Shown: in pieces, positions 30,607-47,335 of the stretch | Layout: every line of letters starts with the position of its first letter | Position numbering within the stretch: position 1 is the first letter of the stretch | NCBI GenBank assembly: GCA_021324365.1 | Contig: JAJPJE010000048.1 | Span: 1 to 64,000, forward strand | Length of the DNA: 64,000 bases | Direction: 5' to 3' | Origin: Terriglobia bacterium | GTDB taxonomy: Bacteria > Acidobacteriota > Terriglobia > Terriglobales > Acidobacteriaceae | The notes under the pieces: model-generated | The model's database searches: none | What the model saw: only the letters and a program-made list of their open reading frames with translations | Told to the model about the DNA's origin: nothing | Program-made: the position numbers and the translations under genes

Positions 30607-30623
30607 TGCAAGGAGCATGCCAA
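30607..30623 (-). promoter_or_regulatory. Sigma-54 promoter of the EPS operon
   Basis: The minus strand reads TTGGCATGCTCCTTGCA. It matches the -24/-12 consensus (YTGGCACGRNNNTTGCW) at all core positions except C to T after TGGCA; GG and GC are 12 nt apart. The predicted start near 30596 leaves ~28 nt to the ATG at 30568. No comparable match was found elsewhere in this intergenic region. Confidence 0.75.
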
Positions 30624-30959: not shown

Positions 30960-31946
30960 ATGGGGATGGTAGTCGAATTGCACAATCCTCAAGTGCCAAA
31001 CGCTAGAGCCCTGCCTAGCCGAAAACCGATGGATTCAACGATACAAGCTACCGAGCAGAATACAGTTCGAGCTACTCGTCTCTCCCCCGACCGAGGATCG
31101 TTATCTTGGCAGTTGATCTCGCTTCTGGTGGCGACCGCAGTTCTATATCACTCAGTGTTGTTTCATTTGGCGGTCCAATGGTGGAGCGATCCAAACTTCT
31201 CCCATGGCGCATTCGTTCCGTTCTTCTCTGCTTTTCTCGTATGGCGCAAGCGCGAGCAGTTGCGTGACATTCCTCAGAATCCCTCGTGGTCTGGATTGAT
31301 CTTCCTGATCGCAGGACTGGCGATGCTTACACTGGGGACATTTGGGGCGGAACTGTTCCTTAGTCGCTTTTCGATACTGCTGGTTATTGCGGGAATCTGT
31401 ATTTATTGTGCTGGATGGAAACTGTTTCGCGCTGTGCTTTTCCCTTGGGCTTTGCTGGTCTTAATGATTCCAATTCCGGCAATCATCTTCAACCAAATCA
31501 CTTTTCCCCTTCAGATTTTATCTTCGAAACTCGCTAGCGCGCTTTTACCGCTTTGCAACGTTCCGGTTCTGCGGGAAGGCAATGTCATTAATCTACCTTC
31601 CATTCCTCTTGAAGTTGCCGAGGCGTGCAGTGGCATTCGCTCGCTTATGAGTCTCACGACAATGGCTATCATTTACGGCACACTTGCAGATAACAATGTT
31701 GTTCGGAAAATCCTTCTGGCATTAGCGGCAATACCGATTGCAGTTGCGGCAAATGCTTTTCGGATATTTGGTACTGGGCTTCTGGTTCAATACTGGGATC
31801 CTGACAAGGCGCTGGGATTCTTTCATGAGTTCTCCGGTTGGGTAATCTTCATCTTTTCTCTCATGCTTCTATTGTCGGCCCACAAACTGTTGATCGCGTT
31901 CTCGAGAAAGTCTCCGCAGGCGGTTGCGACGGGAGTGATCGCATGA
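30960..31946 (+). CDS. xrtA: Exosortase (EpsH/XrtA type)
   Basis: 328 residues, about eight membrane helices. The catalytic triad of the family is visible: Cys223 in EVAEACSGIRS, Arg268 in ANAFRIFG and His289 in GFFHEFSGW. The early WWSDPNFSHGAFVPFFSAFLVW segment and MIPIPAIIFNQITFPLQ are family landmarks. It is thought to act as a transpeptidase-like enzyme cleaving at the PEP motif of PEP-CTERM proteins at the inner membrane. The start is uncertain: ATGs at 30960, 30966 and 31029 all fit, and none has a strong ribosome site. It overlaps EpsI by 4 bp. One candidate substrate is encoded at 39494. Confidence 0.95.
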   Translation: MGMVVELHNPQVPNARALPSRKPMDSTIQATEQNTVRATRLSPDRGSLSWQLISLLVATAVLYHSVLFHLAVQWWSDPNFSHGAFVPFFSAFLVWRKREQLRDIPQNPSWSGLIFLIAGLAMLTLGTFGAELFLSRFSILLVIAGICIYCAGWKLFRAVLFPWALLVLMIPIPAIIFNQITFPLQILSSKLASALLPLCNVPVLREGNVINLPSIPLEVAEACSGIRSLMSLTTMAIIYGTLADNNVVRKILLALAAIPIAVAANAFRIFGTGLLVQYWDPDKALGFFHEFSGWVIFIFSLMLLLSAHKLLIAFSRKSPQAVATGVIA

Positions 31947-32599
31947 ACAGGACGAAGCCATTGATTCGTTTCTCGATTCCGATCCTGCTAATGTTAGGTG
32001 CGGGCGTTCTGATTCAAACTCGCGCCTCTCAGGAGAATCTCCCCAAATCTCAGCCACTATCCTTTTTCCCGCTTGAACTCGGAGTCTGGCGCGGACGAGA
32101 TATCCAGTTGCAGCAGAGTGTTCTTGACTTACTCGGTCCAGGGCAGTTTCTTTCTCGCATCTACGTAAATTCGAGTTCTGCTAATAGCCCCTACATAGAT
32201 TTATTCATCGGCTACTTCCCATCCCAAAAAACCGGGAACACTGCTCACAGTCCCAGGAATTGCCTCCCGGGTTCCGGTTGGTACTTCGCAGATATCCGCC
32301 GACAGGAGATATCGCTCGCTGGACGCACCCTTAGCGTGAACCGAGCCATCATCCAAAAAGGAACAGATCGGCAACTGATGTATTACTGGTACCAGTCTCA
32401 TGGAAGAACAGTAGCAAGTGAATACGCGGCAAAGTACTACCTGATCGCGGACGCGATTCGCCTTAACCGAACCGACGGATCGATCGTTCGTGTCATTACT
32501 CCGATTGAAAACACTGAAGAAGTGCGTACGGCTGATGCGCGAGCCACTCAATTTTTAGGCGGCGTTGTGCCCGAACTGCCGTATTTCATTCCTAATTGA
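31943..32599 (+). CDS. epsI: EpsI family protein
   Basis: 218 residues. The start at 31943 is chosen because its ATG overlaps the exosortase stop (ATGA). One N-terminal membrane helix (LIRFSIPILLMLGAGVLI) then a periplasmic domain with FPLELGVWRGRDI, LFIGYFPSQKTGNTAHSPRNCLPGSGW (conserved His and Cys) and LMYYWYQSHGRTVASEY. EpsI is the standard partner of exosortases and in some species is fused to them; a role in substrate processing is inferred. It is followed after 56 bp by the PrsT-type gene. Confidence 0.93.
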   Translation: MNRTKPLIRFSIPILLMLGAGVLIQTRASQENLPKSQPLSFFPLELGVWRGRDIQLQQSVLDLLGPGQFLSRIYVNSSSANSPYIDLFIGYFPSQKTGNTAHSPRNCLPGSGWYFADIRRQEISLAGRTLSVNRAIIQKGTDRQLMYYWYQSHGRTVASEYAAKYYLIADAIRLNRTDGSIVRVITPIENTEEVRTADARATQFLGGVVPELPYFIPN

Positions 32600-32655: not shown

Positions 32656-34932
32656 ATGAAATCGTGCCGCCACTTTTTTAGCGCCTTCGCGATCCTGCTG
32701 GTAATAGCTGTCACCGCAGGCTGCTCTAAGGATCCTAACGTCAAAAAACAGAAATATCTTGAGAGTGGCGAGAAGTACTTCGCAGCCCAAAAGTACCGTG
32801 AAGCGGTGATTCAGTTCTCAAATGCGATCCAAACCGATCCGAATTTCGCTGAGGCGCATTATCAGCTTGCGAGGGCATACTTAAGACTAGGAAACTGGAA
32901 GAACGGGTACGCGGAACTCTCACGTACGGTTGAGTTGCAACCGGACAACGTGAAGGCGCGATTGGATCTCGGCAACTTTCTTTTAGCAGCGCATCAGATT
33001 AACGATGCCGCCAACTCGTCCAACATCGCATTACAAAAAGATCCTGAAAATCCTGACGTGCTTGCCTTGGCGGCAAACGTCGAGGCAGCAAAACAAGATA
33101 ATGCCGCTGCAGTCGATTACATTCAAAAAGCAATCCAACTCGCGCCAAATCGTGATGATTTGTATGCGAATCGCGCGCTGTTTGAACTGCATTTAGGACG
33201 GAATGCCGATGCAGAGGCCAGCCTAAAGAAAGCCATCGAGGTCGCACCCAAATCTGCTCACAATTATGTAAATTTAGCTTCTTTTTATCAGCAGCAGAAG
33301 AACTTTGCTGCCGCACAACAGACGTTTCAGTCAGCTCTTCAGATTGATCCCAAGAACGTGCCTGCGATAATCGGCTTCACTAAGTTTTATCTTTCGCAGG
33401 GCAAGCGGTCTGAAGCCGAAAAGGTTGTACTCGATGGGAAGAGCGCTCTTGGCAACGATCCGAGTGGATATCGTCTGGCCGCTGATTTCTATCTCGGGAC
33501 TGGGGACTTCGGCAAAGCCACCGAACAATATGCCGCTTTATACCAGTTGCGGCCCAAAGATCTAGATGCCAAGAAGGCATACATCGAATTGTTGCTTCAG
33601 CAAGGAAGAGTGGACCAAGCACAGAAATTGACCGACGAAATCCTCAAAGACAACACCAAAGACAGCCTTGCGAATATCTATGAGGCGGACCTTGAGTTAA
33701 GAGCGGGAAAAACTGCGGATTCCATTACACGTCTCCAACGTGTCATTAAGGATGAACCTGACAATGCCAGGGCCCACTTCCTGCTCGGCGTTGCACTTGA
33801 CCGCAACGGTAACCTTGATCAAGCAGAAAAAGAGTGGAGAGAAGCCGTTCGCCTCAATCCGAACATGATCACCGGATATGAAGCGCTCGCTCGGCTAGCT
33901 CTCCGGACAGCGAACACGGATCTGTTAGCAACTTCCGCCGAACAAATCATCCGATTGCATCCACAAGACGCAAGTGGCTATCTCTTGCGAGCTGCTGCAG
34001 AGAGTAGCCAGAAACAAAGCGAGAGAGCCGACGCTGACATTCAAAAAGCAATCGCTCTCGCTCCTCAATCGAGCGCGGGGTACATAACTCTTGCGAAGCT
34101 CCGCCTCTCGCAGCGCAAGTTTTCGGATGCTCGTACCAATTTTCAACTTGCGCTTGATCGTGACCCATCTTCATCCGAAGCCGTTGCTGGAATCGCACAG
34201 CTCTACGTGGCACAAAAGCAGATTCCGCAGGCAATCCAGTTTCTGGAAGCGCAGATCGCGAAATCCCCGAACAATAGCGCCTTTCATTACATCCTCGGAG
34301 CTCTGCAACTTCAAGAACGCGACATCACGGCTGCCAGCTCTTCATTTCAAAAAGCCGTTGACATGGATAACAGTAATTTTCCTGCTCTGTTCCAACTCGG
34401 TCGATTAGATCTGGCGCAAGGTGACTTCGATAAAGCATCTCAGCAATGGAACACATGGGTGCAAAAAGACAGCAAGAACCCTACTCCGTACTGGCTGCTC
34501 GGACGCCTTGAGGATTCCAAAAACAATTGGCAACAAGCACAGGACTATTACCGAAAAGCTCTTCAACTGAAGTCTGATTTCGCGCCTGCCGCAAATGACT
34601 TGGCGTATTCTATGTTGCTTCACGGGGGAGATCCTGATGTCGCACTCTCTCTTGCGCAGGCGGCGCGAAGAGCATTGCCGGACTCTCCAAACTCCGCTGA
34701 CACTCTGGCACTGGCGTACATGCAAAAAAAGGTATACGCAAGTGCGGTGGATCTATTGCAGGACGCCATTAAGAAATCCCCTGCAAATGCAACTTACGAA
34801 TATCATTTGGGACTTGCGTACCAACAAATCGGAAATTCAGTCGAAGCCCGGAAGCACCTCACGAAAGCGCTAACCGTGGATCCGAAGTTCCCGCAAGCGG
34901 CCGACGCAAGAAAGACCCTGCAGCAACTCTGA
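32656..34932 (+). CDS. prsT: PrsT-type TPR lipoprotein of the PEP-CTERM system
   Basis: 758 residues. Signal with lipobox-like VTAGC (Cys23), then about 20 tetratricopeptide repeats through the whole length (YFAAQKYREAVIQFSNAIQTDPNFAEAHYQLARAYLRLGNW; last unit AYQQIGNSVEARKHLTKALTVDPKFP). Length and layout match the TPR lipoprotein found with exosortase A. It is probably a periplasmic or outer-membrane scaffold for export or sorting. Ribosome site GGAAGGGAT precedes the ATG. The 3' end lies in a perfect 10-bp stem that acts as terminator. Confidence 0.92.
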   Translation: MKSCRHFFSAFAILLVIAVTAGCSKDPNVKKQKYLESGEKYFAAQKYREAVIQFSNAIQTDPNFAEAHYQLARAYLRLGNWKNGYAELSRTVELQPDNVKARLDLGNFLLAAHQINDAANSSNIALQKDPENPDVLALAANVEAAKQDNAAAVDYIQKAIQLAPNRDDLYANRALFELHLGRNADAEASLKKAIEVAPKSAHNYVNLASFYQQQKNFAAAQQTFQSALQIDPKNVPAIIGFTKFYLSQGKRSEAEKVVLDGKSALGNDPSGYRLAADFYLGTGDFGKATEQYAALYQLRPKDLDAKKAYIELLLQQGRVDQAQKLTDEILKDNTKDSLANIYEADLELRAGKTADSITRLQRVIKDEPDNARAHFLLGVALDRNGNLDQAEKEWREAVRLNPNMITGYEALARLALRTANTDLLATSAEQIIRLHPQDASGYLLRAAAESSQKQSERADADIQKAIALAPQSSAGYITLAKLRLSQRKFSDARTNFQLALDRDPSSSEAVAGIAQLYVAQKQIPQAIQFLEAQIAKSPNNSAFHYILGALQLQERDITAASSSFQKAVDMDNSNFPALFQLGRLDLAQGDFDKASQQWNTWVQKDSKNPTPYWLLGRLEDSKNNWQQAQDYYRKALQLKSDFAPAANDLAYSMLLHGGDPDVALSLAQAARRALPDSPNSADTLALAYMQKKVYASAVDLLQDAIKKSPANATYEYHLGLAYQQIGNSVEARKHLTKALTVDPKFPQAADARKTLQQL

Positions 34933-34943
34933 CAGGGTCTTTG
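34911..34943 (+). terminator. Terminator overlapping the prsT stop codon
   Basis: AAAGACCCTG (34911-34920) and CAGGGTCTTT (34933-34942) pair perfectly over 10 bp around a 12-nt loop that contains the TGA stop codon (34930-34932). The stem ends in TCTTT. It sits between convergent genes and could work in both directions. Confidence 0.65.
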
Positions 34944-34968
34944 TACCTTGAGATGGAATATAAGTAGA

Positions 34969-36021
34969 CTACTCCGAAGCTTCTAAATCGGAAGAAATCT
35001 GTTTGGAATGCGAACTGGGCAGGCCGGCTTCGCGAATTTTGTATAGCAATGCTCTATAACTGATGCCTAACGCTCGCGCTGCTTTCTTTCGATTCCAGTT
35101 ATTTGCTTCCAGCACACGCACGATTAACTTCCTCTCGAGCTCATGGACTGCTTGCCGAGTGATCTTCTTCAGAGAAACTGGGCCGTCCAACGGGAGTTCC
35201 AGATCGAGCGTGTCAGGACGTCTGGCGCTCATTTCGCCCAAGATCGCTTCCTCCGAGCCAAGAATCACGTAGCGGCGCATCAGGTTCTCGAGTTCGCGAA
35301 CATTGCCGGGCCAATGGTAACGCTGCATCTGCTGCAGCAGCGAAAGCGACAGCATAGGCGTATTACAGTTGTACTTGTCGTTATAGATTTCCAGGAAGTA
35401 TTCGACAAGAGAAGCGATATCCATCGTGCGTTCCCGCAACGGAGGAACATGCACGTTCACTACGTTAATTCGATAGAACAGATCTTGGCGGAACCGCCCG
35501 GTATCTACTTCTTTCTCCAACACCCGATTGGTGGCGCAGACGACTCTGGCTTCCACCTTCTTGTCGTCCTGCGCTCCGATTCGGCAAAACTGGCCATCCT
35601 GCAGCAACTGCAGCAGTTTGGATTGCAGCCCCATATCCATTTCGGAAATCTCATCAAGAAACAGAGTTCCCCGGTGCGCAAGCTCTACTCGTCCGGGCTT
35701 CGAACCGAGAGCGCCGGTAAAAGCACCCTTTTCATAACCAAATAGTTCGCTTTCGAGCAGTGTGCCCGGGATTGCCGGGCAGTTCACCTTTACGAAGGGG
35801 CCGGATTCCCACGGCGACAATCGATGAATTAGTCGCGCGATGATGTCTTTGCCGGTGCCACTTTCACCTTGGATGAGTACCGGTACGTTCGCGGCGGCAA
35901 TCTTCTCGATCCTCGTCCGGATCGCGATCATACGGTGGGAACGCCCGAATATCACAGCCTCGGGAGGCATACTGCCGTGATTGCGGGCTAAGGTCGTGTT
36001 TGTGGCCGGACTGGCTGCCAT
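34969..36021 (-). CDS. Sigma-54-dependent activator without receiver domain
   Basis: 350 residues. A short N-terminus (~25 residues) replaces any sensory domain. AAA domain: Walker A GESGTGKD (52-59), GAFTGA (99-104), Walker B FLDEISEMD (Asp123-Glu124), VVCATNRVLEKEV, GRFRQDLFYRINVVNVHVPPLRER. The C-terminal Fis-type helix is NNWNRKKAARALGISYRALLYKIREAG. It should be a constitutively active or partner-controlled enhancer-binding protein, similar to PspF in layout. It faces prsT and is followed upstream by PilZ and two-component genes. A weak sigma-54-like element lies in front of it. Confidence 0.92.
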   Translation of the reverse strand: MAASPATNTTLARNHGSMPPEAVIFGRSHRMIAIRTRIEKIAAANVPVLIQGESGTGKDIIARLIHRLSPWESGPFVKVNCPAIPGTLLESELFGYEKGAFTGALGSKPGRVELAHRGTLFLDEISEMDMGLQSKLLQLLQDGQFCRIGAQDDKKVEARVVCATNRVLEKEVDTGRFRQDLFYRINVVNVHVPPLRERTMDIASLVEYFLEIYNDKYNCNTPMLSLSLLQQMQRYHWPGNVRELENLMRRYVILGSEEAILGEMSARRPDTLDLELPLDGPVSLKKITRQAVHELERKLIVRVLEANNWNRKKAARALGISYRALLYKIREAGLPSSHSKQISSDLEASE

Positions 36022-36925: not shown

Positions 36926-37867
36926 ATGTATCTCGGCATGCCTAAGTCATCAGCCACCGCCCCTGCTCGTGCTCAAGAAGGGTCTCCTAGCGCCGATGTC
37001 GGGTCGGAGCTCCTTCAGGAGGCGATTTTTCCGCTGCTGCCAGCCCCTGCAGAGCTGAAGACTGCCTATATTGAGCTGCGAAATCAGTATCAGCGATGCG
37101 CGGCTGCTTTGGCGACTGCTGCCCACGATTTGCGAACACCACTGGCTGTGATTTCCGGCTACCTTGAGCTCTTGGTAACAGGCAAACTGGGCACCGTTAA
37201 TGAAAAGCAGCAGCGTGTGTTGCAGGATATGCAGGTCAGTAGCAACCGTCTGCAACGACTGGTAAATGACTTTCTCACCTTTTCGTCGCTGGAAACGGGC
37301 GCGGTTACCATACGGAATCAGGATCCGCAGGACATGAATGCATGTCTGCAGGAACTAAGCGGCTTTTGGCTGCCGCGGTTTCAAGAAAAAGGCGTGGCAT
37401 TCTATTTCCTATCAAATCCTAATCTCGAAGCTTTTCCGTTCGACTATGATCGCATCCAGCGGGTCATCTCGAATCTGCTTGAGAACGCGTTAAAATTCAC
37501 TCCTTGTGGCGGAACCGTTTGGCTTCATGCGGAACCGCAATTGTGGGAACGGCGAAATTCTCACAAATCTGAGGACGGAGTGCAGGAGAGACGCAAGCGT
37601 AATCTGCTCGTGCCGAATGCAGTTCGCGTAAGCGTTGCCGATACTGGCCCGGGCATTGCTCCTGAGTATCACCAGGAAATATTCGGCGACTTCTTTCAGG
37701 TTCCAGATGGCCGCACTAGTGACGACGAAGGCATGGGACTGGGGCTCGCCATTGCCCGAAGGCTAGTCCAGGCTCACGGTGGCAAGATTTGGGTCGAGAG
37801 CGAACCAAATTGCGGCTGTAAGTTTTCGTTCCTTCTACCTATAAAACCTATAAAGAAGTCCCAGTGA
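36926..37867 (+). CDS. Soluble sensor histidine kinase
   Basis: 313 residues, no membrane segment and no recognisable sensory domain in the first ~45 residues. HisKA: TAAHDLRTPLAVISGYLELL with phosphoacceptor His67. HATPase: NLLENALKF (Asn183-Asn187 region), DTGPGIA (from 239) and GMGLGLAIARR. It overlaps the response regulator gene (GTGA), so the two form a pair. It differs from the large membrane PrsK kinases usually seen with PEP-CTERM systems. The signal must come through a partner protein or cytoplasmic cue. The start is not certain; an ATG four codons later is possible. Confidence 0.88.
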   Translation: MYLGMPKSSATAPARAQEGSPSADVGSELLQEAIFPLLPAPAELKTAYIELRNQYQRCAAALATAAHDLRTPLAVISGYLELLVTGKLGTVNEKQQRVLQDMQVSSNRLQRLVNDFLTFSSLETGAVTIRNQDPQDMNACLQELSGFWLPRFQEKGVAFYFLSNPNLEAFPFDYDRIQRVISNLLENALKFTPCGGTVWLHAEPQLWERRNSHKSEDGVQERRKRNLLVPNAVRVSVADTGPGIAPEYHQEIFGDFFQVPDGRTSDDEGMGLGLAIARRLVQAHGGKIWVESEPNCGCKFSFLLPIKPIKKSQ

Positions 37868-39282
37868 GAGCACAAGACGTCATGTCAAAATCTGCCTTCA
37901 TCCTAATCGTCGATGACGAACCCACGATGTCGAGGTATCTTCGCACCCTCCTTGAAGTAGAAGGGTACCGCGTTGAAGCGGTTAGCAACGGGCAGGAAGC
38001 GATTGATCGACTGACTCATGCTCCACTCCCGGAATTAGTTCTTCTCGATGTCCTCATGCCGGTGATGGATGGCTTGCAGACACTGGAACATATTCGTTCG
38101 GTACATCCGCAGCTGAAGGTAATTATGCTTTCTTGCGTGAGTGATACGCGGAAAGTTGTCCAGGCAATCAGGATGGGAGCGCACGATTATCTTACCAAGC
38201 CGTTTCAAAAGGCCGATTTAGAAGCTGTAATCGAGCAGTGCATCGGCGATCGCACTGGCCACACTGTCCATCACGCACACGGAGAAATTGAAGATTTAGG
38301 TGACGATGTATTCTTCGTTGCCGCCAGCCCTGCAATGCGCAAGATCCGTTCCCAGGCGAAGCTGGTTGCTAATGTCGATATTCCCGTGCTTCTTCTGGGC
38401 GAGAGCGGCACCGGCAAGGAAGTGATGGCGCGCCTGGTTCACCGCTACTCTCCCCGAGCGCACCGCACGTTTCTCAAGGTGAATTGCGCTGCCGTTCCGG
38501 CTGACCTGTTGGAAAGTGAATTGTTCGGATATGAGCCAGGCGCTTTCACTGGCGCTACTCATTCCAAGCCTGGGAAGTTTGAGCTTTGCAACAAGGGAAC
38601 GATTCTTCTGGATGAAATTGGCGAAATGCCACCGCAGTTACAAGCCAAACTGCTTCATGTCTTACAGGATCAGCAGTTCTCAAGGCTTGGCAGCCGTAAC
38701 GTCATCAAGGTCGATGTGAGGATACTTGCCGCAACCAACATCGATATTCCAACGGCGATCGCAGAAAAGAAGCTTCGAGAAGATCTCTATTATCGGCTAA
38801 ACGGATTCTCCATCAATTTACCGCCCCTCCGGGAACGTCGCGAAGAAATCGGTCTTCTTCTCCGTCACTTCATGGCACAAGTCGCGGAACGATATGGTCG
38901 TCCGGCAGCCCCGATCTCGCAGCACCTGTTGGAGGCTTGCGAACGATACCCATGGCCAGGAAATTTGCGTGAGCTTGGCAATTTCGTGAAACGCTATCTC
39001 ATTCTTGGTGATGAAGAGATGGCGATCCACGAACTGCAAGTCAATGGTGGCGAAAAATCCGCTACAACTCCTTCAAGCGGTCCGGCTGCACCTTCCGATG
39101 GGCTGAAGTCTATTGTACGAAACGTAAAAGACGAGGCTGAAATTGAAGCAATCTCCAAAGCGCTCGAACAAACGAATTGGAACCGCAAAAAGGCTGCTGC
39201 AATTTTGAAAATCAGTTACAAGGCGCTCCTCTACAAAATTCGCCAGTATGACATCCAGCGAGTGGGAACAACTGTTCCCTAG
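37864..39282 (+). CDS. NtrC-type response regulator (PrsR-like)
   Basis: 472 residues from the GTG at 37864 (overlapping the kinase stop) or 466 from the ATG at 37882. Receiver: FILIVDDEP, phosphoacceptor Asp62 in LLDVLMP, Lys112 in LTKPF. AAA domain: Walker A GESGTGKE (179-186), GAFTGA (226-231), LLDEIGEMP (Asp250-Glu251). C-terminal Fis helix TNWNRKKAAAILKISYKALLYKIRQ. It fits the sigma-54 regulator of exosortase/EPS genes (PrsR role). A short hairpin, GGGAAC-AACT-GTTCCC, lies at 39264-39279, just before the stop codon. Confidence 0.92.
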   Translation: MRAQDVMSKSAFILIVDDEPTMSRYLRTLLEVEGYRVEAVSNGQEAIDRLTHAPLPELVLLDVLMPVMDGLQTLEHIRSVHPQLKVIMLSCVSDTRKVVQAIRMGAHDYLTKPFQKADLEAVIEQCIGDRTGHTVHHAHGEIEDLGDDVFFVAASPAMRKIRSQAKLVANVDIPVLLLGESGTGKEVMARLVHRYSPRAHRTFLKVNCAAVPADLLESELFGYEPGAFTGATHSKPGKFELCNKGTILLDEIGEMPPQLQAKLLHVLQDQQFSRLGSRNVIKVDVRILAATNIDIPTAIAEKKLREDLYYRLNGFSINLPPLRERREEIGLLLRHFMAQVAERYGRPAAPISQHLLEACERYPWPGNLRELGNFVKRYLILGDEEMAIHELQVNGGEKSATTPSSGPAAPSDGLKSIVRNVKDEAEIEAISKALEQTNWNRKKAAAILKISYKALLYKIRQYDIQRVGTTVP

Positions 39283-39417
39283 CTCTTCATAGCTCTATTC
39301 GTTACATTTGGCTCGCATTTACCGGATATTTGCCCCTCAGTGACATTGGCGAATGCAAGCTTTTGCAGTTACGACAGCCATGAATCGCCGGGAAGTCCCG
39401 TATTTTCAACGATAGTT

Positions 39418-39434
39418 TCGGCACAGCAATTGCA
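39418..39434 (+). promoter_or_regulatory. Sigma-54 promoter of the small PEP-CTERM gene
   Basis: TCGGCACAGCAATTGCA: GGCAC at -24 and TTGCA at -12, GG and GC 12 nt apart; only the T before GG differs in the core. The predicted start near 39445 leaves ~49 nt to the ATG at 39494. A perfect palindrome CGGGAAGTCCCG lies just upstream (39389-39400). Confidence 0.7.
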
Positions 39435-39493
39435 TAACTTCGGGTAGTCGCGTTTTCCAGCCAATGTGGAAGGCGGGAAACGCGAGGCTCGAT

Positions 39494-39658
39494 ATGCATT
39501 CACTCTTTATTTCGGTGACCTCAGCGCTGCAGTTGGGACTTCTGCATTCGGTTCAGTTACTCGAAAACGTGCAGCTATCTGAGCCCGGCATGCTGGTCCT
39601 TCTGGGTACCGTCCTCCTCGGTATCGGCTCGTTTGGCCGTCGCAAGCTCCCTCAGTAA
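39494..39658 (+). CDS. 54-residue PEP-CTERM peptide, predicted exosortase substrate
   Basis: Start ATG at 39494 follows GCGAGG at a proper distance; an upstream ATG at 39464 adds ten residues without signal character. The peptide has a hydrophobic N-terminus (MHSLFISVTSALQLGLLHS), a ~10-residue linker, then the tripartite sorting signal: SEPG, a hydrophobic helix (MLVLLGTVLLGIGSFG) and a basic tail (RRKLPQ). PEP-CTERM consensus is P-E-P; here Ser replaces the first Pro, a known variant. Almost no mature domain would remain after cleavage. It lies 211 bp after the PrsR-like gene, under its own sigma-54 promoter. It could be a carrier, a processing signal or a priming substrate of the exosortase. 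Confidence 0.75.
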   Translation: MHSLFISVTSALQLGLLHSVQLLENVQLSEPGMLVLLGTVLLGIGSFGRRKLPQ

Positions 39659-39986
39659 GAATCACTTTTCCCTGGGCTACGCTGGTACCCTTGGTTGCGT
39701 ATACCTTGGCTGATTTCGTTGGTCTCTTGAGCACACCTTTTCGCTAAAACGAAAAAACTTTGCAGCTTTTCCAGGTTCCAGTCAGCATTTTTCCCGCTAA
39801 ACCATAGACAACAAGCTGTCACGTGGATTGGCCACAATCCAGAATTGGAAGTCGAACTGCACAGAATGTCGGCAACTCACGTGTGGGGAAAAACTCGCTT
39901 TCGGAGTGTTTCCCTGGTGGACGTCGCCTGATCCTGAGTGTCGACGAAAACCGGACGACCACTCCCGCTCGAGATCTGAGGAATTC
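39659..39986. other. Intergenic region, 328 bp
   Basis: No gene seen. It holds one weak sigma-54-like element (39845-39861). A GG/TTGC pair at 39684-39698 has 13-nt spacing and is rejected. Confidence 0.5.
39845..39861 (+). promoter_or_regulatory. Weak candidate sigma-54 promoter of the 2307-residue protein gene
   Basis: TTGGAAGTCGAACTGCA has GG and GC 12 nt apart and a -12 CTGCA, as in the paralog's candidate at 6722-6738, but the -24 part is TGGAAG. The predicted start near 39872 gives a leader of ~115 nt. Confidence 0.3.
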
Positions 39987-42900
39987 ATGGTACGAAAGAC
40001 GTTTTGTTTTTTATTCTTCGTTCTCTCTTTAACTACAGCAGCGTTCGCTACTTGTTCCGCACCGCAGAACGCGATTGAAGCCGAAAACTGTCTGCCTGGA
40101 AACCCGCCGAGTCAGTGGTACCCGGGGGTGATCGACACCACGATTCAGGGCTTTGCGACGAGTATGAGTGTCAACGCCGGCCAGACGATTTCATTCAAGG
40201 TGAGCACAACGGCGAGTTCTTACCACATTGAGATCTATCGGATTGGGTACTACCAGGGCAATGGCGCTCGATTGATTACCACCTTCACGCCTACGGCTTC
40301 CCTGGCACAGAATCAGCCTGCTTGCGTCACAGATGCAACTTCTCGACTTTACGACTGCGGCAATTGGAAAGTGTCCGCTTCCTGGGCTGTTCCGTCTACC
40401 GCAACATCTGGCGTCTATTTGGCCTGGTTAGTTCGCGATGATACTGGCGGCGACAGTTATATACCCTTCGTCGTTCGCAACGACACGAGCACTTCCGCGG
40501 TCCTGTTTCAGACAGCAGATGAAAGCTGGCAGGCTTACAACGGCTACGGTGGACACAGTTTATACGGCCCTGCTACGGGATTTGATCTGACCAACCGCGG
40601 TTACAAAGTCAGTTACAACCGGCCGCTCTCGCCCATCGAAACTGAAACGCAATTCTTCTACGCAGAGTACCCGATGGTGCGCTGGCTGGAGGCAAATGGT
40701 TACGACGTCACTTACTTCAGCAGCGTCGATGCAGCGCAGTCTGGCTCTTTAATCAAGAACCATCAACTCTACCTTTCTGTTGGACACGACGAATACGTCT
40801 CCGGCCCGAAGCGGACTAACATCGAGGCTGCACTTGCCGCAGGCGTAAACCTCGCCTTTTTCAGTGGCAATGAATTTTTCTGGAAGACTCGATGGGAAAA
40901 CAGTATTGACGGGTCGAACACGCCGTATAGGACGTTGGTTTGTTACAAGGAGACGCTTGGGCCAACATCAAATCCGCCGGCCACCGCAATGGTGGATCCA
41001 CTCGATCCGCCGACGTGGACCGGCACTTGGCGCGATCCCAGCAAGAGCCCGCCCGCAGACGGAGGACGCCCAGAGAACGCGTTGACGGGTCAGTTGTTCC
41101 GAGTGAACGGGCCCGGTAGCGATAACACGAATCTTGCGATTAAAGTTCCCGCCGCTGAAGGGAAATTGCGGTTCTGGCGAAATACGGCAGTTGCGGCACA
41201 AAGCGCGAACCAGACTTGGACATTGCCCGCCGGAACGTTAGGATATGAGTGGGACACAGAAGAAGATAATGGATCTCGTCCTGCCGGCCTCTTTGATCTT
41301 TCAACTGCGACCTACGCGCTCACAACTGATTATCTTCAAGACTATGGTGGCCTCTATGGTGCAGGCACAGCGACGCACCACATGTCACTTTATCGTGCTC
41401 CGAGCGGTGCATTAGCTTTCGGAGCGGGCACGGTGCAATGGTCATGGGGATTGGACGCTAACCATGACGGCGGTGGCCCCGGGACCGACGTAAACATGCA
41501 GCAGGCGACTGTGAACCTGTTTGCTGATATGGGAATTCAGCCGGCCACCCTGCAACCAGGTTTATCTCTTGCCACCAAATCGACCGACACGACTCCTCCG
41601 TCTTCCTTCATTACTTCGCCAGCGAATGGCGCCGCCGTGCAGGCCGGAACGGTAGTGAATGTGACCGGAACCGCGTCTGATACAGGTGGAGGCATCGTTG
41701 CCGGAGTGGAAGTCTCTACCGATAGTGGAGCCACATGGCATCCCGCTTCCGGACTCAACAGTTGGAATTACACGTACACTGCAAACAAGGCCGGAACGTT
41801 TTCGATAATGAGTCGCGCGGTTGACGATAGCGCGAATCTGGAGACTCCATCGGCTGGCGTCTCGATTGGTGTGCTTGGAGTTACCTCGCTTTCTCTGACA
41901 TCTTCGAACCTTTCCGGCGGGGCCTCGACTCAGGGCACCGTAACTCTGAGTGCGCCCGCAGGCACAAACGGTGCAGTCGTGAGTTTGTCGAGCAGTAACA
42001 GTGCGGTTGCGTCTGTGCCTGCGTCGGTAACCGTCCCAGCTGGCAGCGCAAGCACCACTTTCACGGTTAGTACGAGTCCAGTCGGGATCAGTAATTCAGT
42101 CACGCTCTCCGCGACTTATGCCACGACCGTGACGACATCGTTGACGATCAATCCGGTATTTCCCCCGGTGCCTGGCAACCTCGATCTGGATGCCAATGTT
42201 TCCAACGACCAGTCCGCCTCGTCCTCGACGATTGTCAGCAAAACTTTCTCCACAACTGTCGGGAATGAACTTGTACTGGCGATGATCTCCAGCGATGCCC
42301 TGAACTCCAATATGACAGTGTCTAGCGTGGCAGGAGCCGGCCTGACTTGGACGCTTGCGGTACGCACCAATGCACAAGGGGGCACGGCGGAAATATGGAA
42401 GGCATTTGCACCCAACCCGCTGAGCAACGTCTCCGTTACAGCAACTTTCTCCCAGACCTCACCCGGTGCTTCCATCACCATAATGAGTTTCGCTGGCGTG
42501 GACGCGAGCAACAATGGAGCATCTGCCGTAGGGGCGACTGCGAGTGGAAGTGCGGCTTCGGGCGCTCCAAAGGCCTCGCTGACCACCACACGAAACGGAT
42601 CCTGGGTACTCGGTGTAGGTACGGATTACGACAATGCGGTCGCCAGAACAGTCGGACCAGGTCAGATATTGGTGCACCAAGCGTTCTCGACGACTGGCGA
42701 TACTTTCTGGACGCAGATCCAAAGCCTCGCAACCCCGGCAAGCGGAACCAGCGTCACGATCAACGACACTGCTCCGACTGCTGATAGTTACAATCTCGCA
42801 ATCCTCGAAGTAAAACCACCCCTCGTAGGCAACTTCAGCATCTCTGGAACGATTTCTCCTGTTGCGGCGGGTTCCGGCGCAAGTGTGTCACTGACGGGAA

Positions 42901-45900
42901 CTGTTAATCAGACCGTTACTGCGGACACCCAGGGCAATTACACCTTCACGGCTCTACCCACTGGTTCGTACACGGTAACCCCGTCGCAGCCGTCGTACGT
43001 ATTTTCACCGGCGTCTCAATCAGTGACCATCAGCTCAGCAAGTGCCAGCGGAGTCAACTTCACGGGATCAACAACTTATTCGCTATCCGGGTCGATCACT
43101 CCATCGACGGCGGGTAGTGGGGCCAGTGTGTCTGTAACAGGACCGACCACTGCGACGGTAACGGCCAACAGTTCAGGCACTTTCACCTTCCCCTCACTGC
43201 CGAATGGTACGTACACAGTCACACCAAGTAAGAATGGGTTCACGTTCACTCCAGCTTCTCAGAACGCAACGATTAATAACGGTAACCTGACCGGCGTTAA
43301 CTTCACCGGGCAATCGATACCGGTTGTAAACGTGACTGTCGATGCCGCCGTGTCTAACGACAGCACCACAAGCAGTACGTCGATCACCAGTTCCCCGTTC
43401 TCGACTACTGCTGGAAGCGAACTGTTACTTGCGTTTATCGGTACGGACGCATTGTCGCCGAACATGACTGTTTCCAGCGTTACTGGTGGTGGCCTTACCT
43501 GGACACTCGTGGTACGCAGCAATGCTCAGGGTGGAAGCTCAGAGATCTGGCGAGCATTTGCCACGGCGCCACTCTCGAATGCCACTGTCAGCGCTAACTT
43601 CTCGCAAACCGCCCCTGACGCCACGATTACGGTGATGAGCTTCACTGGCGTGGACAGCACCGGAACGAACGGATCGGGAGCAATTGGAGCGAATCTGGCA
43701 ACCAACGCCAAATCCGGTGCTCCCACGATCACGCTCACGACGACCCGTAACAATTCTCTTGTGATCGGCGTCGGGAATGACTATGACAACGCGATTAATC
43801 GCACCGTCGGAACGAACCAGACCATGGTTCACCAATTCCTCGCGACCGGCGCAGGCGACACCTACTGGGTGCAGCGTCAAAATGCTGCTACGCCATCCAG
43901 CGGAACGGCGGTACGCATCAACGATACCGCTCCGACTGGCGACAGTTACAACCTGGCAGCAGTTGAGATCCTTCCACCCATAACTGGCCCTTACAGCATC
44001 ACGGGAACCATCAGCCCAACGACGGGTGGCAGCGGTGCTGCGGTCACGCTGAGTGGATCCGCCAGTGCCGTGACGAGCGCTGACAGCTCCGGCAACTATT
44101 CCTTTGCTTCGCTCCCGAATGGATCGTATACCGTGACTCCGTCGCTCAGCGGATACGTATATACGCCGGGCAACCAGCCCGTCACGATCAGCGGCGCGAG
44201 CGTAACAGGCGTTAACTTCACCGTCGCTCCCTTGTCTACGATCTTATCGGTCGCACCGGCCGCACTTGTGTTCACTGGTAATCAAGGTGGCTCGAATCCC
44301 AATGCAGGCACGATCAGCATCACTAATGCCGGAAACGGCGCTTTAAGTTACACAACCAGCAGCGATAGCGCGTGGCTGACCGCCTCACCCGCGACGGGAA
44401 CCGCACCGCAGCAGTTGCAAATCTCTGCGAACACAAGTGGCCTTGCAATAGGCACGTATACAGGGCACATCACAATCACGGCCAGCGGCGCACAGAACTC
44501 TCCGACAACCGTGACGGTGGTTCTCAATGTCGTGATGGCGACCGACTGGTTGATGGTTGATCATGATCCGGCGCGCACCGGGTATTCTCCGGACGAAACG
44601 GCTCTTTCCGGGTCAACAGTACCGAACCTTCAACTCAACTGGTCAACCGTCGTCGACGGATCGGTAACGACTCAGCCGCTGTACGCTCATTCGGTTCAGG
44701 TGAATGGCGCGACTCACGACATCGTGATGGTCGGTACTGCCGGAAATTCTCTCTATGCTCTGGACGCTGTCAGCGGCGCGGTTTTGTGGAAGCGCAACTT
44801 CGGTCCGAGCACGCCGAACAACTGGGCCATTCCAGACGGCTTCGGTATTGAAGCTCCTCCAGTGATTGACCGCGTGACGGGACGCGTCTATACCGTTCCA
44901 ACCGATGGCACTTTCCACGTTCTCAATCTGAACGACGGAACCGATGTCTATACTGCACTCACGTTGATCGCGAATCCAGCCACTAACTCGGTCTGGGGCG
45001 GCCTGAATAAGAATGGCAACAGCGTCTACGTCGCAACTGGAAGTAACGGTGGCGACGTCGCACCTTGGCGAGGTCAGGTATACAAGGTCGATGTCACTGC
45101 TGCACCAACACTGACCGGCAACTTTGTCGTCGTTCCCGGAATTGCTGCGCCAAATGGCGGCGGCGGTATCTGGGGCTATGGTGGCGTTTCGACAGATCAG
45201 GCCACAGGAAATGTCTATGCCGCAACAGCGTACGATTCCACTGTTCTCGGCAACGGCAATGAAACGACGCTCCCGTATTCGAACAGCGTCATTGCGCTCA
45301 ACTCTGGTCTGAGCCTGCTCGGGTATTTCCAGGGGCCGGCTCCGGGCACAATCCCGTGTAGTGGTGCACCTTGCGATCTTGATTTCGCCTCGACTCCAAC
45401 CATCTTTCAACCTGCCGGTTGCTCGACCATGGTGGCTGGAGGCAGCAAGAATGGAAATCTCTATCTGTTCCGTACTACCGATCTTGCTGTGAGTGGACAG
45501 CCTCTCCAAATCCTGAATCTCAATGTGCCGAATGACTCTCTGGGAAGCGGAGGTGTTGGCGGCGTTCCTGCATGGGATGCGCCGGACAACATGTTGTTTA
45601 TCACCGATGCAGGTCCCGGTGTCGCAGGTGTGTCGGCCGGCATCGTTGCGTTAAACGTAACAGCTTCATGTACATTGCAGGTTGCATGGAGTAAGCCTCT
45701 AAGCGGCAGTGATTTTCCAAACTCCACGCCGACGGTCGCCAACGGCGTCGTCTACGTTGGTGAAGGTAATACAGGAAAAATCCATGCGTTCAATACTCTG
45801 ACGGGAGCTGAATTGTGGGCGAGCGGAAGCAATTACGGGGCTAAGTCCACTTTCGGCGCTCCAACCGTTACCGGCGGTCACCTCTACGCCGGATCATGGA

Positions 45901-46910
45901 CCAGTTACTCCGGAGGTGGCATTGTCGGCGCCTTCGGACTGCCCGCGGCAACTCCGATCCTCTCGCTCTCGTCACAGAGCCTCTCATTCAGCGGCACGGT
46001 GGGAGGAACGAATCCTGCAAGTCAAACCGTCAACATCACGAATACCGGAAACGGTACTCTGTCCTACACAACGACTAGCGACAGCGCGTGGTTGACAGCA
46101 TCGCCCTCAAGCGGCACGGCGCCGCAGGCACTTCAGGTTTCGGTCTCAAATACTGGGCTGACTGCCGGAACCTACACTGGTCACATCACCGTGACTGCAA
46201 CGGGCGCTCAAAATTCTCCCGCTACGATTACGGTTACTTTCACCCTGACTACTGCGACTTCTGGGCTTGCCATTGATGCCAACGTAGCGAAAGACAATAC
46301 CAGCGCCGCAGCATCAATCACCTCACCAGCTTTTTCGACGGCATCTTCGAACGAACTGCTGCTCGCTCTGATCGCGACCGACGGTATCAAGTCGAATATG
46401 ACGGTAAGCAGCGTTACCGGTGGAGGCCTGACGTGGACTCTGGTGCTACGCACAAACGCGCAGGGAGGAACCTCCGAGATTTGGCGGGCGTTCGCGCCTT
46501 CAACGCTGAGCAACGTAACAGTGACAGCGAACCTTTCTCAGACCGTGATCTCTACGATGACAGTGCTGTCAATTTCCGGCGTTGATACCACCGGAAGTGG
46601 CAGCGGCGCGATTGGGGCTACTGCAACGGCGAACAAGGCATCTGGAGCGCCGACTGCTTCGCTGACAACGACTCGTAACAACTCTCTCGTGCTTGGCGTG
46701 GGCAACGACTACAACAATGCAATCTCTCACACCCCCGGCACAGGACAGGCACTCATACACCAGTTGCTGGCTACGAGTACCGGCGACACGTACTGGATGC
46801 AACGTCAGAACGCCACAACTCCGCTAAGCGGAACTTCTGTGACGATCAACGATACAGCGCCGACTGGAGATAGCTACAACTTGAGCATCGTAGAAGTACG
46901 AACGCCATAA
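39987..46910 (+). CDS. Giant secreted protein: N,N-dimethylformamidase-beta-like domain, PQQ-like propeller and repeats
   Basis: The start at 39987 follows GAGGAATTC and gives a signal peptide (MVRKTFCFLFFVLSLTTAAFA); 2307 residues. Order: dimethylformamidase-beta-like region (~25-500), nearly the same as in the protein at 1226-6667; bacterial Ig; three copies of a ~170-residue module (e.g. LDLDANVSNDQSASSS ... NMTVSSVAGAGLTWTLAVR ... ASGAPKASLTTTRNGSWVLGVG); carboxypeptidase-regulatory-like Ig repeats (ISGTISPVAAGSGASVSLTG, three copies); two BACON-like domains (TSSDSAWLTASPATGTAPQ); and a PQQ-type beta-propeller (WLMVDHDPARTGYSP, SLYALDAVSGAVLWKRNFG). No DUF4082 module and no PEP-CTERM tail are present. 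Role unknown; extracellular enzyme or adhesin. Confidence 0.85.
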   Translation: MVRKTFCFLFFVLSLTTAAFATCSAPQNAIEAENCLPGNPPSQWYPGVIDTTIQGFATSMSVNAGQTISFKVSTTASSYHIEIYRIGYYQGNGARLITTFTPTASLAQNQPACVTDATSRLYDCGNWKVSASWAVPSTATSGVYLAWLVRDDTGGDSYIPFVVRNDTSTSAVLFQTADESWQAYNGYGGHSLYGPATGFDLTNRGYKVSYNRPLSPIETETQFFYAEYPMVRWLEANGYDVTYFSSVDAAQSGSLIKNHQLYLSVGHDEYVSGPKRTNIEAALAAGVNLAFFSGNEFFWKTRWENSIDGSNTPYRTLVCYKETLGPTSNPPATAMVDPLDPPTWTGTWRDPSKSPPADGGRPENALTGQLFRVNGPGSDNTNLAIKVPAAEGKLRFWRNTAVAAQSANQTWTLPAGTLGYEWDTEEDNGSRPAGLFDLSTATYALTTDYLQDYGGLYGAGTATHHMSLYRAPSGALAFGAGTVQWSWGLDANHDGGGPGTDVNMQQATVNLFADMGIQPATLQPGLSLATKSTDTTPPSSFITSPANGAAVQAGTVVNVTGTASDTGGGIVAGVEVSTDSGATWHPASGLNSWNYTYTANKAGTFSIMSRAVDDSANLETPSAGVSIGVLGVTSLSLTSSNLSGGASTQGTVTLSAPAGTNGAVVSLSSSNSAVASVPASVTVPAGSASTTFTVSTSPVGISNSVTLSATYATTVTTSLTINPVFPPVPGNLDLDANVSNDQSASSSTIVSKTFSTTVGNELVLAMISSDALNSNMTVSSVAGAGLTWTLAVRTNAQGGTAEIWKAFAPNPLSNVSVTATFSQTSPGASITIMSFAGVDASNNGASAVGATASGSAASGAPKASLTTTRNGSWVLGVGTDYDNAVARTVGPGQILVHQAFSTTGDTFWTQIQSLATPASGTSVTINDTAPTADSYNLAILEVKPPLVGNFSISGTISPVAAGSGASVSLTGTVNQTVTADTQGNYTFTALPTGSYTVTPSQPSYVFSPASQSVTISSASASGVNFTGSTTYSLSGSITPSTAGSGASVSVTGPTTATVTANSSGTFTFPSLPNGTYTVTPSKNGFTFTPASQNATINNGNLTGVNFTGQSIPVVNVTVDAAVSNDSTTSSTSITSSPFSTTAGSELLLAFIGTDALSPNMTVSSVTGGGLTWTLVVRSNAQGGSSEIWRAFATAPLSNATVSANFSQTAPDATITVMSFTGVDSTGTNGSGAIGANLATNAKSGAPTITLTTTRNNSLVIGVGNDYDNAINRTVGTNQTMVHQFLATGAGDTYWVQRQNAATPSSGTAVRINDTAPTGDSYNLAAVEILPPITGPYSITGTISPTTGGSGAAVTLSGSASAVTSADSSGNYSFASLPNGSYTVTPSLSGYVYTPGNQPVTISGASVTGVNFTVAPLSTILSVAPAALVFTGNQGGSNPNAGTISITNAGNGALSYTTSSDSAWLTASPATGTAPQQLQISANTSGLAIGTYTGHITITASGAQNSPTTVTVVLNVVMATDWLMVDHDPARTGYSPDETALSGSTVPNLQLNWSTVVDGSVTTQPLYAHSVQVNGATHDIVMVGTAGNSLYALDAVSGAVLWKRNFGPSTPNNWAIPDGFGIEAPPVIDRVTGRVYTVPTDGTFHVLNLNDGTDVYTALTLIANPATNSVWGGLNKNGNSVYVATGSNGGDVAPWRGQVYKVDVTAAPTLTGNFVVVPGIAAPNGGGGIWGYGGVSTDQATGNVYAATAYDSTVLGNGNETTLPYSNSVIALNSGLSLLGYFQGPAPGTIPCSGAPCDLDFASTPTIFQPAGCSTMVAGGSKNGNLYLFRTTDLAVSGQPLQILNLNVPNDSLGSGGVGGVPAWDAPDNMLFITDAGPGVAGVSAGIVALNVTASCTLQVAWSKPLSGSDFPNSTPTVANGVVYVGEGNTGKIHAFNTLTGAELWASGSNYGAKSTFGAPTVTGGHLYAGSWTSYSGGGIVGAFGLPAATPILSLSSQSLSFSGTVGGTNPASQTVNITNTGNGTLSYTTTSDSAWLTASPSSGTAPQALQVSVSNTGLTAGTYTGHITVTATGAQNSPATITVTFTLTTATSGLAIDANVAKDNTSAAASITSPAFSTASSNELLLALIATDGIKSNMTVSSVTGGGLTWTLVLRTNAQGGTSEIWRAFAPSTLSNVTVTANLSQTVISTMTVLSISGVDTTGSGSGAIGATATANKASGAPTASLTTTRNNSLVLGVGNDYNNAISHTPGTGQALIHQLLATSTGDTYWMQRQNATTPLSGTSVTINDTAPTGDSYNLSIVEVRTP

Positions 46911-46953: not shown

Positions 46954-47335
46954 TCAAACCTTTCAAAATCCCTCACACCTTTGGTGCCATTCTGCCCTGC
47001 TGTCTAGTGCTGGGAAGCTTTCTATCCTTTAGCTGTAAGACTTTGACCATTCCAGCTGGAACGTTAGGCCGCGATTGGGCTCCACAAGTACCGCCTTCCT
47101 TGTGACGCATCACTCGTCGTGGTGACAATGTGCCATTGTGGGCGCCACAGGCTCTAGTACTTCCACACACAGCCTCTCCGCCGACGCGCTTCTAGTCTCT
47201 CCACGTCACCTTTCTGGAATTTCGCGTGCGCTTTTCAGCAACGGAACCCGAGTTCCGGAGTGGTAGACGTGTGCACCGCCCTAAATGAGACCGTTTCACC
47301 CTCTTTTTATAGTCGCGCTGTCGGGAGATCGATTT
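46954..47335. other. Intergenic region, ~380 bp, with a structured segment
   Basis: No gene seen. At 47120-47147 GTGG, a perfect stem ACAATG-TGC-CATTGT and CCAC pair in nested order, which could be part of a structured leader of the next gene. TATAGT at 47308-47313 has no good -35. No convincing sigma-54 site. Confidence 0.45.

Follow-up and report, generated by a model that had tools for sequence, protein, structure and literature searches.

A very short PEP-CTERM reading frame with its own sigma-54 promoter element near an exosortase gene in a Terriglobia bacterium

Introduction

Can a reading frame of only 54 or 64 codons, ending in a PEP-CTERM-type tail and located near an exosortase gene, be a gene in its own right? 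The question is raised by a short ORF in the 64,000-nucleotide stretch of Terriglobia bacterium DNA analysed here (the window), which the initial annotation described from the sequence alone as a minimal PEP-CTERM peptide. The basic observation, a PEP-CTERM ORF of small size that lies close to an exosortase gene and has a sigma-54 promoter to itself, is confirmed; the promoter side of the evidence is stronger, and conservation and the export signal are weaker. The ORF is probably a real but unusually reduced exosortase substrate.

The fate of exosortase substrates is poorly known, and cutting and attachment could be followed most simply on a near-bodiless substrate. In the PEP-CTERM/exosortase system with a PrsK/PrsR sigma-54 regulon, an upstream motif is followed by a -24/-12 element at a mean distance of 63 nt; there, motif 1 comprises 17 nt ending in TTTACA and was found in Proteobacteria only (Haft, 2006; PMC1569441).

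Results

Gene content of the locus

The surroundings of the short ORF begin with an activator gene and EpsE-type export genes on the minus strand, followed by the exosortase gene on the plus strand, an EpsI gene, a PrsT-like TPR gene, a second activator gene and a PilZ gene (both on the minus strand), genes for a histidine kinase and a response regulator, the short ORF itself and the genes of two very large proteins (Table 1). The order from exosortase to regulator is found again in several relatives. The exosortase lies where the initial annotation had placed it, 7.5 kb before the start of the short ORF, which in turn lies 211 nt past the regulator stop. An exosortase in the same genome, one of the marks of a PEP-CTERM protein, is present. 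Used as a query against its own genome (95% complete, 125 contigs), this exosortase returns a single match at E<=1e-20, which is the exosortase itself. Its relatives among the matches listed carry titles that are nearly all Terriglobia, Acidobacteria, Acidobacteriaceae or genera thereof, and most are MAGs; several loci of named Edaphobacter and Granulicella are among them. For the histidine kinase, the PrsK model is absent from the best 25 of 84 NCBIfam matches, and an Rfam search of positions 39200-40100 gave no match at E<=1.

Seven loci of relatives (L140, L143, L144, L151, L163, L173 and L175) carry a PEP-CTERM gene of 193-265 aa flanked by the TPR gene and the second activator gene. A counterpart is absent from the window (34932-34969), and other loci with the same gene order are also without it.

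Table 1. Coordinates of the features of the locus in the window.
Feature	Coordinates	Strand	Evidence or remarks
Exosortase	30960..31946	+	PF09721 E=1.4e-76; XrtA model 211 vs cut-off 208
EpsI-type protein after the exosortase	31838..32599	+	TIGR02914 139 vs cut-off 42.8; ORF taken from first TTG
Histidine kinase, likely partner of the regulator	36926..37867	+	HisKA and HATPase_c (Pfam)
Regulator, candidate activator of the promoter	37864..39282	+	Receiver, sigma-54 activator and Fis-type HTH domains (Pfam)
Candidate activator (enhancer-binding protein) site TGCAAGCTTTTGCA	39354..39367	+	Dyad TGCA-N6-TGCA; core shared with upstream regions of PEP-CTERM genes
-24/-12 (sigma-54) promoter element CGGCACAGCAATTGCA	39419..39434	+	Score 15.3 of 16.2
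Short ORF, longer reading, 64 aa	39464..39658	+	ATG 29 nt past the sigma-54 element; no evident Shine-Dalgarno
Short ORF, shorter reading, 54 aa	39494..39658	+	ATG 39494; Shine-Dalgarno-like AGG 6 nt upstream
PEP-CTERM-type tail of the short ORF	39575..39655	+	LSEPG, hydrophobic helix MLVLLGTVLLGIGSFG, GRRKLPQ
Very large protein directly 3' of the short ORF	39987-46910		DMFA2_C, Ig-like, BACON and other beta domains
Second very large protein	47285-53698		DUF4082, Ig-like

Tail, N-terminus and codon use of the short ORF

The short ORF exists as claimed, in two possible readings, and has the layout of a PEP-CTERM protein: a C-terminal motif, a hydrophobic helix and a basic end. The start of the longer reading stands at the same distance from its promoter element as the starts of two PEP-CTERM genes elsewhere in the same genome, C84 (an ATG) and C72 (a TTG). 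The initial annotation spoke of a full sorting signal. The tail is significant with a model of acidobacterial tails (E=1.9e-4 among 41,639 ORFs of 151 sequences; the model was built from 29 tails of relatives, one of them bogus). It has lost the initial Pro of PEP, a residue that 97 of 124 longer control candidates have (a set that includes regex false positives). The match to TIGR02595 is borderline, at 15.9 bits against a cut-off of 16 and at 16.3 in the frame context of the genome search, and the Pfam model PF07589 gives 16.3, under its cut-off of 20.7. Furthermore, the tail has V where G stands in 70 of 79 readable tails, and it reaches 20.6 bits with a model of minimal proteins built without the window, which puts it at rank 87 of 102 rows; the long PEP-CTERM tails used as controls average 34.8 bits. 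When the short ORF is placed beside 1,068 ORFs found 3' of regulator orthologs, the acidobacterial tail model gives it E=3.8e-6, the next best being 1.2.

The signal-like N-terminus of the earlier description makes a weak export signal. On a simple hydropathy scale, used in place of a trained predictor, the best 12-residue stretch reaches 1.54, which is weakly hydrophobic; 18 minimal proteins span 2.07-3.18, all above the short ORF, and 12% of 92 long PEP-CTERM proteins are as low. No A-x-A cleavage motif is seen by eye. On this scale the short ORF falls short of the N-terminal export signal by which a PEP-CTERM protein is recognised. Its codon use, 0.127 bits per codon, stands at about the 30th percentile of real-gene stretches and is equalled by 8.6% of wrong-frame stop-free stretches; it is compatible with coding and constitutes weak evidence.

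A sigma-54 element and a dyad shared with PEP-CTERM genes

Scored with a matrix for the sigma-54 consensus, CGGCACAGCAATTGCA is near-consensus, as had been claimed, and its layout is common to other PEP-CTERM genes. When the 250 nt upstream are shuffled by mononucleotides, none of 2000 rounds equals its score, which is the second highest of the window and the highest among the places of the genome where a dyad is combined with a sigma-54 site. The best sigma-54 element of the window, TGGCATGCTCCTTGCA (30607-30622, minus strand), lies 5' of the minus-strand activator and EpsE genes.

The dyad core TGCA-N6-TGCA, of which the window holds three occurrences, is found in the 300 nt that precede the gene in 28 of 92 cases of long PEP-CTERM genes, compared with 0.7% of random 300-nt stretches. 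Likewise, 25 of the 92 have an upstream sigma-54 score of at least 12.5, compared with 3% of random stretches. These enrichments are to be read with the composition of both sets in mind, the random stretches being mostly coding and the 92 genes coming from loci partly fetched by tail similarity, with several per genus, starts set by rule and genes of the own genome included. When the best-scoring site of each is taken, the distance from dyad to sigma-54 element is 74-78 nt in 17 of 30 cases, 63-67 nt in three and 53-54 nt in two, groups that would differ by about one helical turn. The 52 nt between TGCAAGCTTTTGCA and CGGCACAGCAATTGCA fall beside the 53-54 class. Because the core was noticed by comparing the window with relatives, its presence in the window is no independent prediction. 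The extended dyad, of the type TGTGCA-N6-TGCACA, was found by aligning the upstream regions of the minimal PEP-CTERM genes of relatives. TGCAAGCTTTTGCA agrees with it at 8 of 12 bases, in the core alone, a level reached by 55% of random stretches. The short ORF thus shares the dyad core, the sigma-54 element and the spacing of the regulon, and not the extended dyad. A stricter pattern of dyad plus sigma-54 site, which occurs in 53 of 150 relatives, does not list it.

Within the genome itself, dyad core plus sigma-54 site is found at 17 places (16 distinct dyads), compared with none for a reversed pattern, a control that is unmatched in composition here and in the 150 relatives. Besides the short ORF, the genome has nine PEP-CTERM genes over the cut-off, and four of them have such a place in front, with sigma-54 scores of 9.6 (C7), 11.8 (C55), 10.8 (C72) and 14.7 (C84), strong in one only. 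At C7 the sigma-54 scan puts the same element 162 nt before the frame, while the pattern search lists no ORF in reach. The geometry of the C84 gene (gap 53, ATG 29 nt on) is nearly that of the short ORF. Several of the remaining places fall inside other reading frames. Another one, at about 1841-1919 (minus strand) of C59 (locus L370), combines the core with a sigma-54 site of 13.8 before a secreted-looking protein of 180 aa with no evident PEP-CTERM tail, a possible further member of the regulon. The dyad-associated PEP-CTERM regulon in Acidobacteria/Terriglobales, together with the conserved minimal family described below, is the more solid part of these results.

The promoter might instead serve the gene of the downstream 2307-aa protein (ATG 39987), with the short ORF as a leader in its 5' region. 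No terminator-like site is found on the plus strand of 39200-40100, and the C59 place also precedes a protein without an evident tail. However, such a leader would span about 540 nt, yet the ORF begins 29 or 59 nt past the element, and if the ORF were just a leader, its PEP-CTERM tail would have to be put down to coincidence. We consider this arrangement unlikely.

Another candidate for the enhancer, the palindrome GGGAACAACTGTTCCC (GGGAACA-N2-TGTTCCC, 39264-39279), was dropped because it sits inside the 3' end of the regulator gene and because the window holds two matches with up to three mismatches, against 2.4 expected.

The neighbouring regulator

The short ORF had been placed directly downstream of a PrsR-like regulator. 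The position holds, and the label is loose: the regulator scores 369.7 with the PrsR model TIGR02915, under the cut-off of 502.6. Its score with the AtoC model is higher, at 396.8, and falls under the AtoC cut-off of 714. Strong orthologs of the regulator and sites of the stricter pattern co-occur (31 of 40 versus 16 of 50 genomes of the family; Fisher p=2e-5, uncorrected for relatedness). The orthologs were called by hand at 60% identity or more, or 70% or more over a part. The list omits two order-level genomes at 60%, which leaves the family count unaffected. The co-occurrence is an association only, the relatives being not independent. On this basis the neighbouring regulator is the foremost candidate for the activator, and the short ORF promoter would most likely be activated by this protein.

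Conservation at the locus

Conservation in relatives had been set beforehand as the test for refuting the ORF, and the outcome counts against it. In the 33 loci that extend 800 nt or more past the regulator, no tail ORF is found 3' of it (38 were examined, at least one genome being counted twice), and none of 35 loci with at least 60 nt has a sigma-54 score of 12.5 or a dyad core within 400 nt 3' of the regulator. A search with the whole short protein in 300 genomes of the family gave no whole-protein match among those listed at E<=0.1; the non-self ones look like PEP-CTERM-type C-termini. The sets searched hold the window's genome as the only one of its genus. The short ORF at its place is therefore lineage-specific, and unique among the usable loci.

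Could the tail and promoter be unrelated coincidences at a chance ORF? Curated cut-offs that are barely reached or missed, the weak codon evidence, the lack of conservation at this place and an extended dyad match no better than chance are all in keeping with such an origin. Chance would nevertheless have to supply a tail, a near-consensus sigma-54 site and a dyad core jointly, 7.5 kb from an exosortase gene, and we regard this as very improbable.

A conserved family of minimal PEP-CTERM proteins

Minimal PEP-CTERM proteins do form a conserved class in related genera. When 398 genomes of the family were searched, a query alignment that included the window ORF found short frames of 59-135 aa in at least 23 other genomes at E 3.3e-13 or better (loci L213, L216, L214, L277, L278, L279, L283, L335-L355 and L358). 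Among the matches listed, these short frames rank ahead of or among the first long proteins. The family occurs in five genera other than that of the window, with 18 of the 23 listed genomes in g29 and the rest in g6, g15, g92 and g99. In the 19 genomes parsed (the set omits G368, G224, G378 and G298), the proteins have 55-74 aa and often start with GTG or TTG, and in 16 an MFS gene lies upstream on the other strand. Sigma-54-like elements upstream score 9.1-16.0 (best in a set stretch), with only 4 of 19 reaching 12.5, and the dyad core is found upstream in 12 of 19, a count that includes one spurious G321 stretch. The stretch before the tail reads like A-P-A-V-V-R-S-S-V. In five of these proteins NCBIfam recognises the tail alone.

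The family shows that minimal PEP-CTERM genes can be under selection. pN/pS is 0.36 over nine members and 0.22 in the tail, the nine being those of the 19 with 56 aa and a V or L start, with G186 set aside. For the pair of genes from G014 and G117, dN is 0.175 and dS 1.69, the latter near saturation.

The short ORF resembles this family in consisting of a short N-terminus, a spacer and a tail, with a -24/-12-like element and a dyad core. In contrast, it matches in the tail only, has neither the strong signal peptide nor the MFS neighbour, and is located near an exosortase gene. The MFS gene of the family locus has no match in the genome of the window at E<=1e-20. An apparent membership at E=1.8e-18 was rejected: the value proves nothing of the sort because the window row stood in the query, and a model without the window matches the tail only. 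Thus, the minimal class is real and the short ORF is like it in architecture, with membership not shown by sequence.

The short ORF may alternatively be the remnant of a longer PEP-CTERM gene, of which promoter, start and tail survive and the body is lost; a peptide would perhaps still be made, and have no role. Decay remains a serious rival, if a somewhat improbable one, because the N-terminal export signal is weak, the tail is below average and the dyad matches in its core only. The lineage-specific position agrees with decay, and so does the absence from the window of the 193-265 aa PEP-CTERM gene of seven relatives. Shortening may happen, since the PEP-CTERM gene at the MFS locus is minimal in some genera and encodes about 210 aa in others. 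On the other hand, the frame is open, and no other dyad-plus-sigma-54 place of the genome equals the sigma-54 score of its promoter. Residues ahead of the tail are also unlike the pre-tail regions of the 124 longer candidates. Matches of 41-43% to long PEP-CTERM proteins of one genus (from residue 4 or 7 to 52) were considered as traces of a C-terminal remnant and set aside as unsupported, since 699 of 1000 shuffles score as high.

Discussion

Proposed explanation

The explanation preferred here, whose chances we judge to be evenly balanced, is that the short ORF represents a genuine PEP-CTERM gene, very short and lineage-specific, in a sigma-54 regulon of PEP-CTERM genes, and that its product is made, exported and cut. 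The computed basis for this consists of the tail, the promoter element, the dyad core, the enrichment at PEP-CTERM genes and the exosortase gene. From these we infer that an activator of the NtrC type, in all likelihood the product of the regulator gene immediately 5', would bind the dyad TGCA-N6-TGCA and loop to the sigma-54 polymerase at the -24/-12 element, with transcription starting near 39445. Translation would yield a product of 54-64 residues that may enter the membrane via its tail and an N-terminus of weak hydrophobicity. Cleavage of this product by the exosortase would then take place at LSEPG, and the remainder, of some 40 residues at most, would be free or linked to another molecule. 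The candidate roles that the initial annotation gave such a substrate are those of a glycan carrier, a primer for the export machine or a signal peptide.

Comparison with known systems

The window resembles the PrsK/PrsR system in its PEP-CTERM-type tail, its exosortase, its PrsT-like TPR gene, a nearby EpsI gene and an upstream motif followed by a -24/-12 element (Haft, 2006; PMC1569441). It differs in that the core is TGCA-N6-TGCA, the host belongs to the Acidobacteria and the regulator fails the PrsR model, and also in that the short ORF is far shorter than the other PEP-CTERM proteins seen in its genome. The sigma-54 element of the Proteobacterial regulon is thus present in the window, whereas the PrsR model and motif 1 find no counterpart; by eye, no TTTACA lies between 39283 and 39419.

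Another comparable case is Aquincola pepA, a PEP-CTERM gene transcribed from an RpoN-dependent sigma-54 promoter, which the short ORF resembles as a PEP-CTERM gene with such a promoter (PMC9850573). A literature search of open-licence papers found none on PEP-CTERM peptides of this size. The pepA product, going by its length, is reportedly not of the minimal kind.

The PExPT-CTERM protein (TIGR04200, 57 positions), a target of exosortase J, is likewise a very short exosortase target. Unlike this pair, the short ORF has another motif, with no match to TIGR04200 at E<=1, and the exosortase of the window scores 39.6 against an XrtJ cut-off of 200. A PExPT-CTERM protein of 64 aa stands beside an exosortase-like gene in L100.

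Implications

In a wider and more doubtful proposal, the exosortase substrates of Terriglobales would include some that consist of no more than an export signal, about 8-25 residues and a sorting tail. Sigma-54 promoters with an enhancer of the type TGTGCA-N6-TGCACA would allow them to be made when needed. The freed or transferred peptide would itself be the product, acting as a signal, an exopolysaccharide primer or a reporter of exosortase activity, and the short ORF would be an independent example beside the exosortase. With the dyad, a PEP-CTERM regulon outside Proteobacteria has a candidate activator site that is open to testing. The minimal family, with its frequent GTG or TTG starts, could easily escape annotation.

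Other short PEP-CTERM-like frames in relatives

Short frames of related appearance occur at other loci. In genome G070, a short PEP-CTERM ORF of 55-74 aa directly follows EpsI (L081 8514-8798, also L218 2795-3079), with an N-terminus that by eye is unlike the usual signal peptide. Frames of about 68-79 aa from ATG, which begin like a signal peptide and end in a tail of the PEGGS type, are found at L152 19213-19635, L164 15579-15830, L186 9760-9969 and L188 18723-18965; NCBIfam gave no match even at E<=10 for those of L164, L186 and L188. The PEGGS-tail protein of L188 adjoins a second exosortase-like gene.
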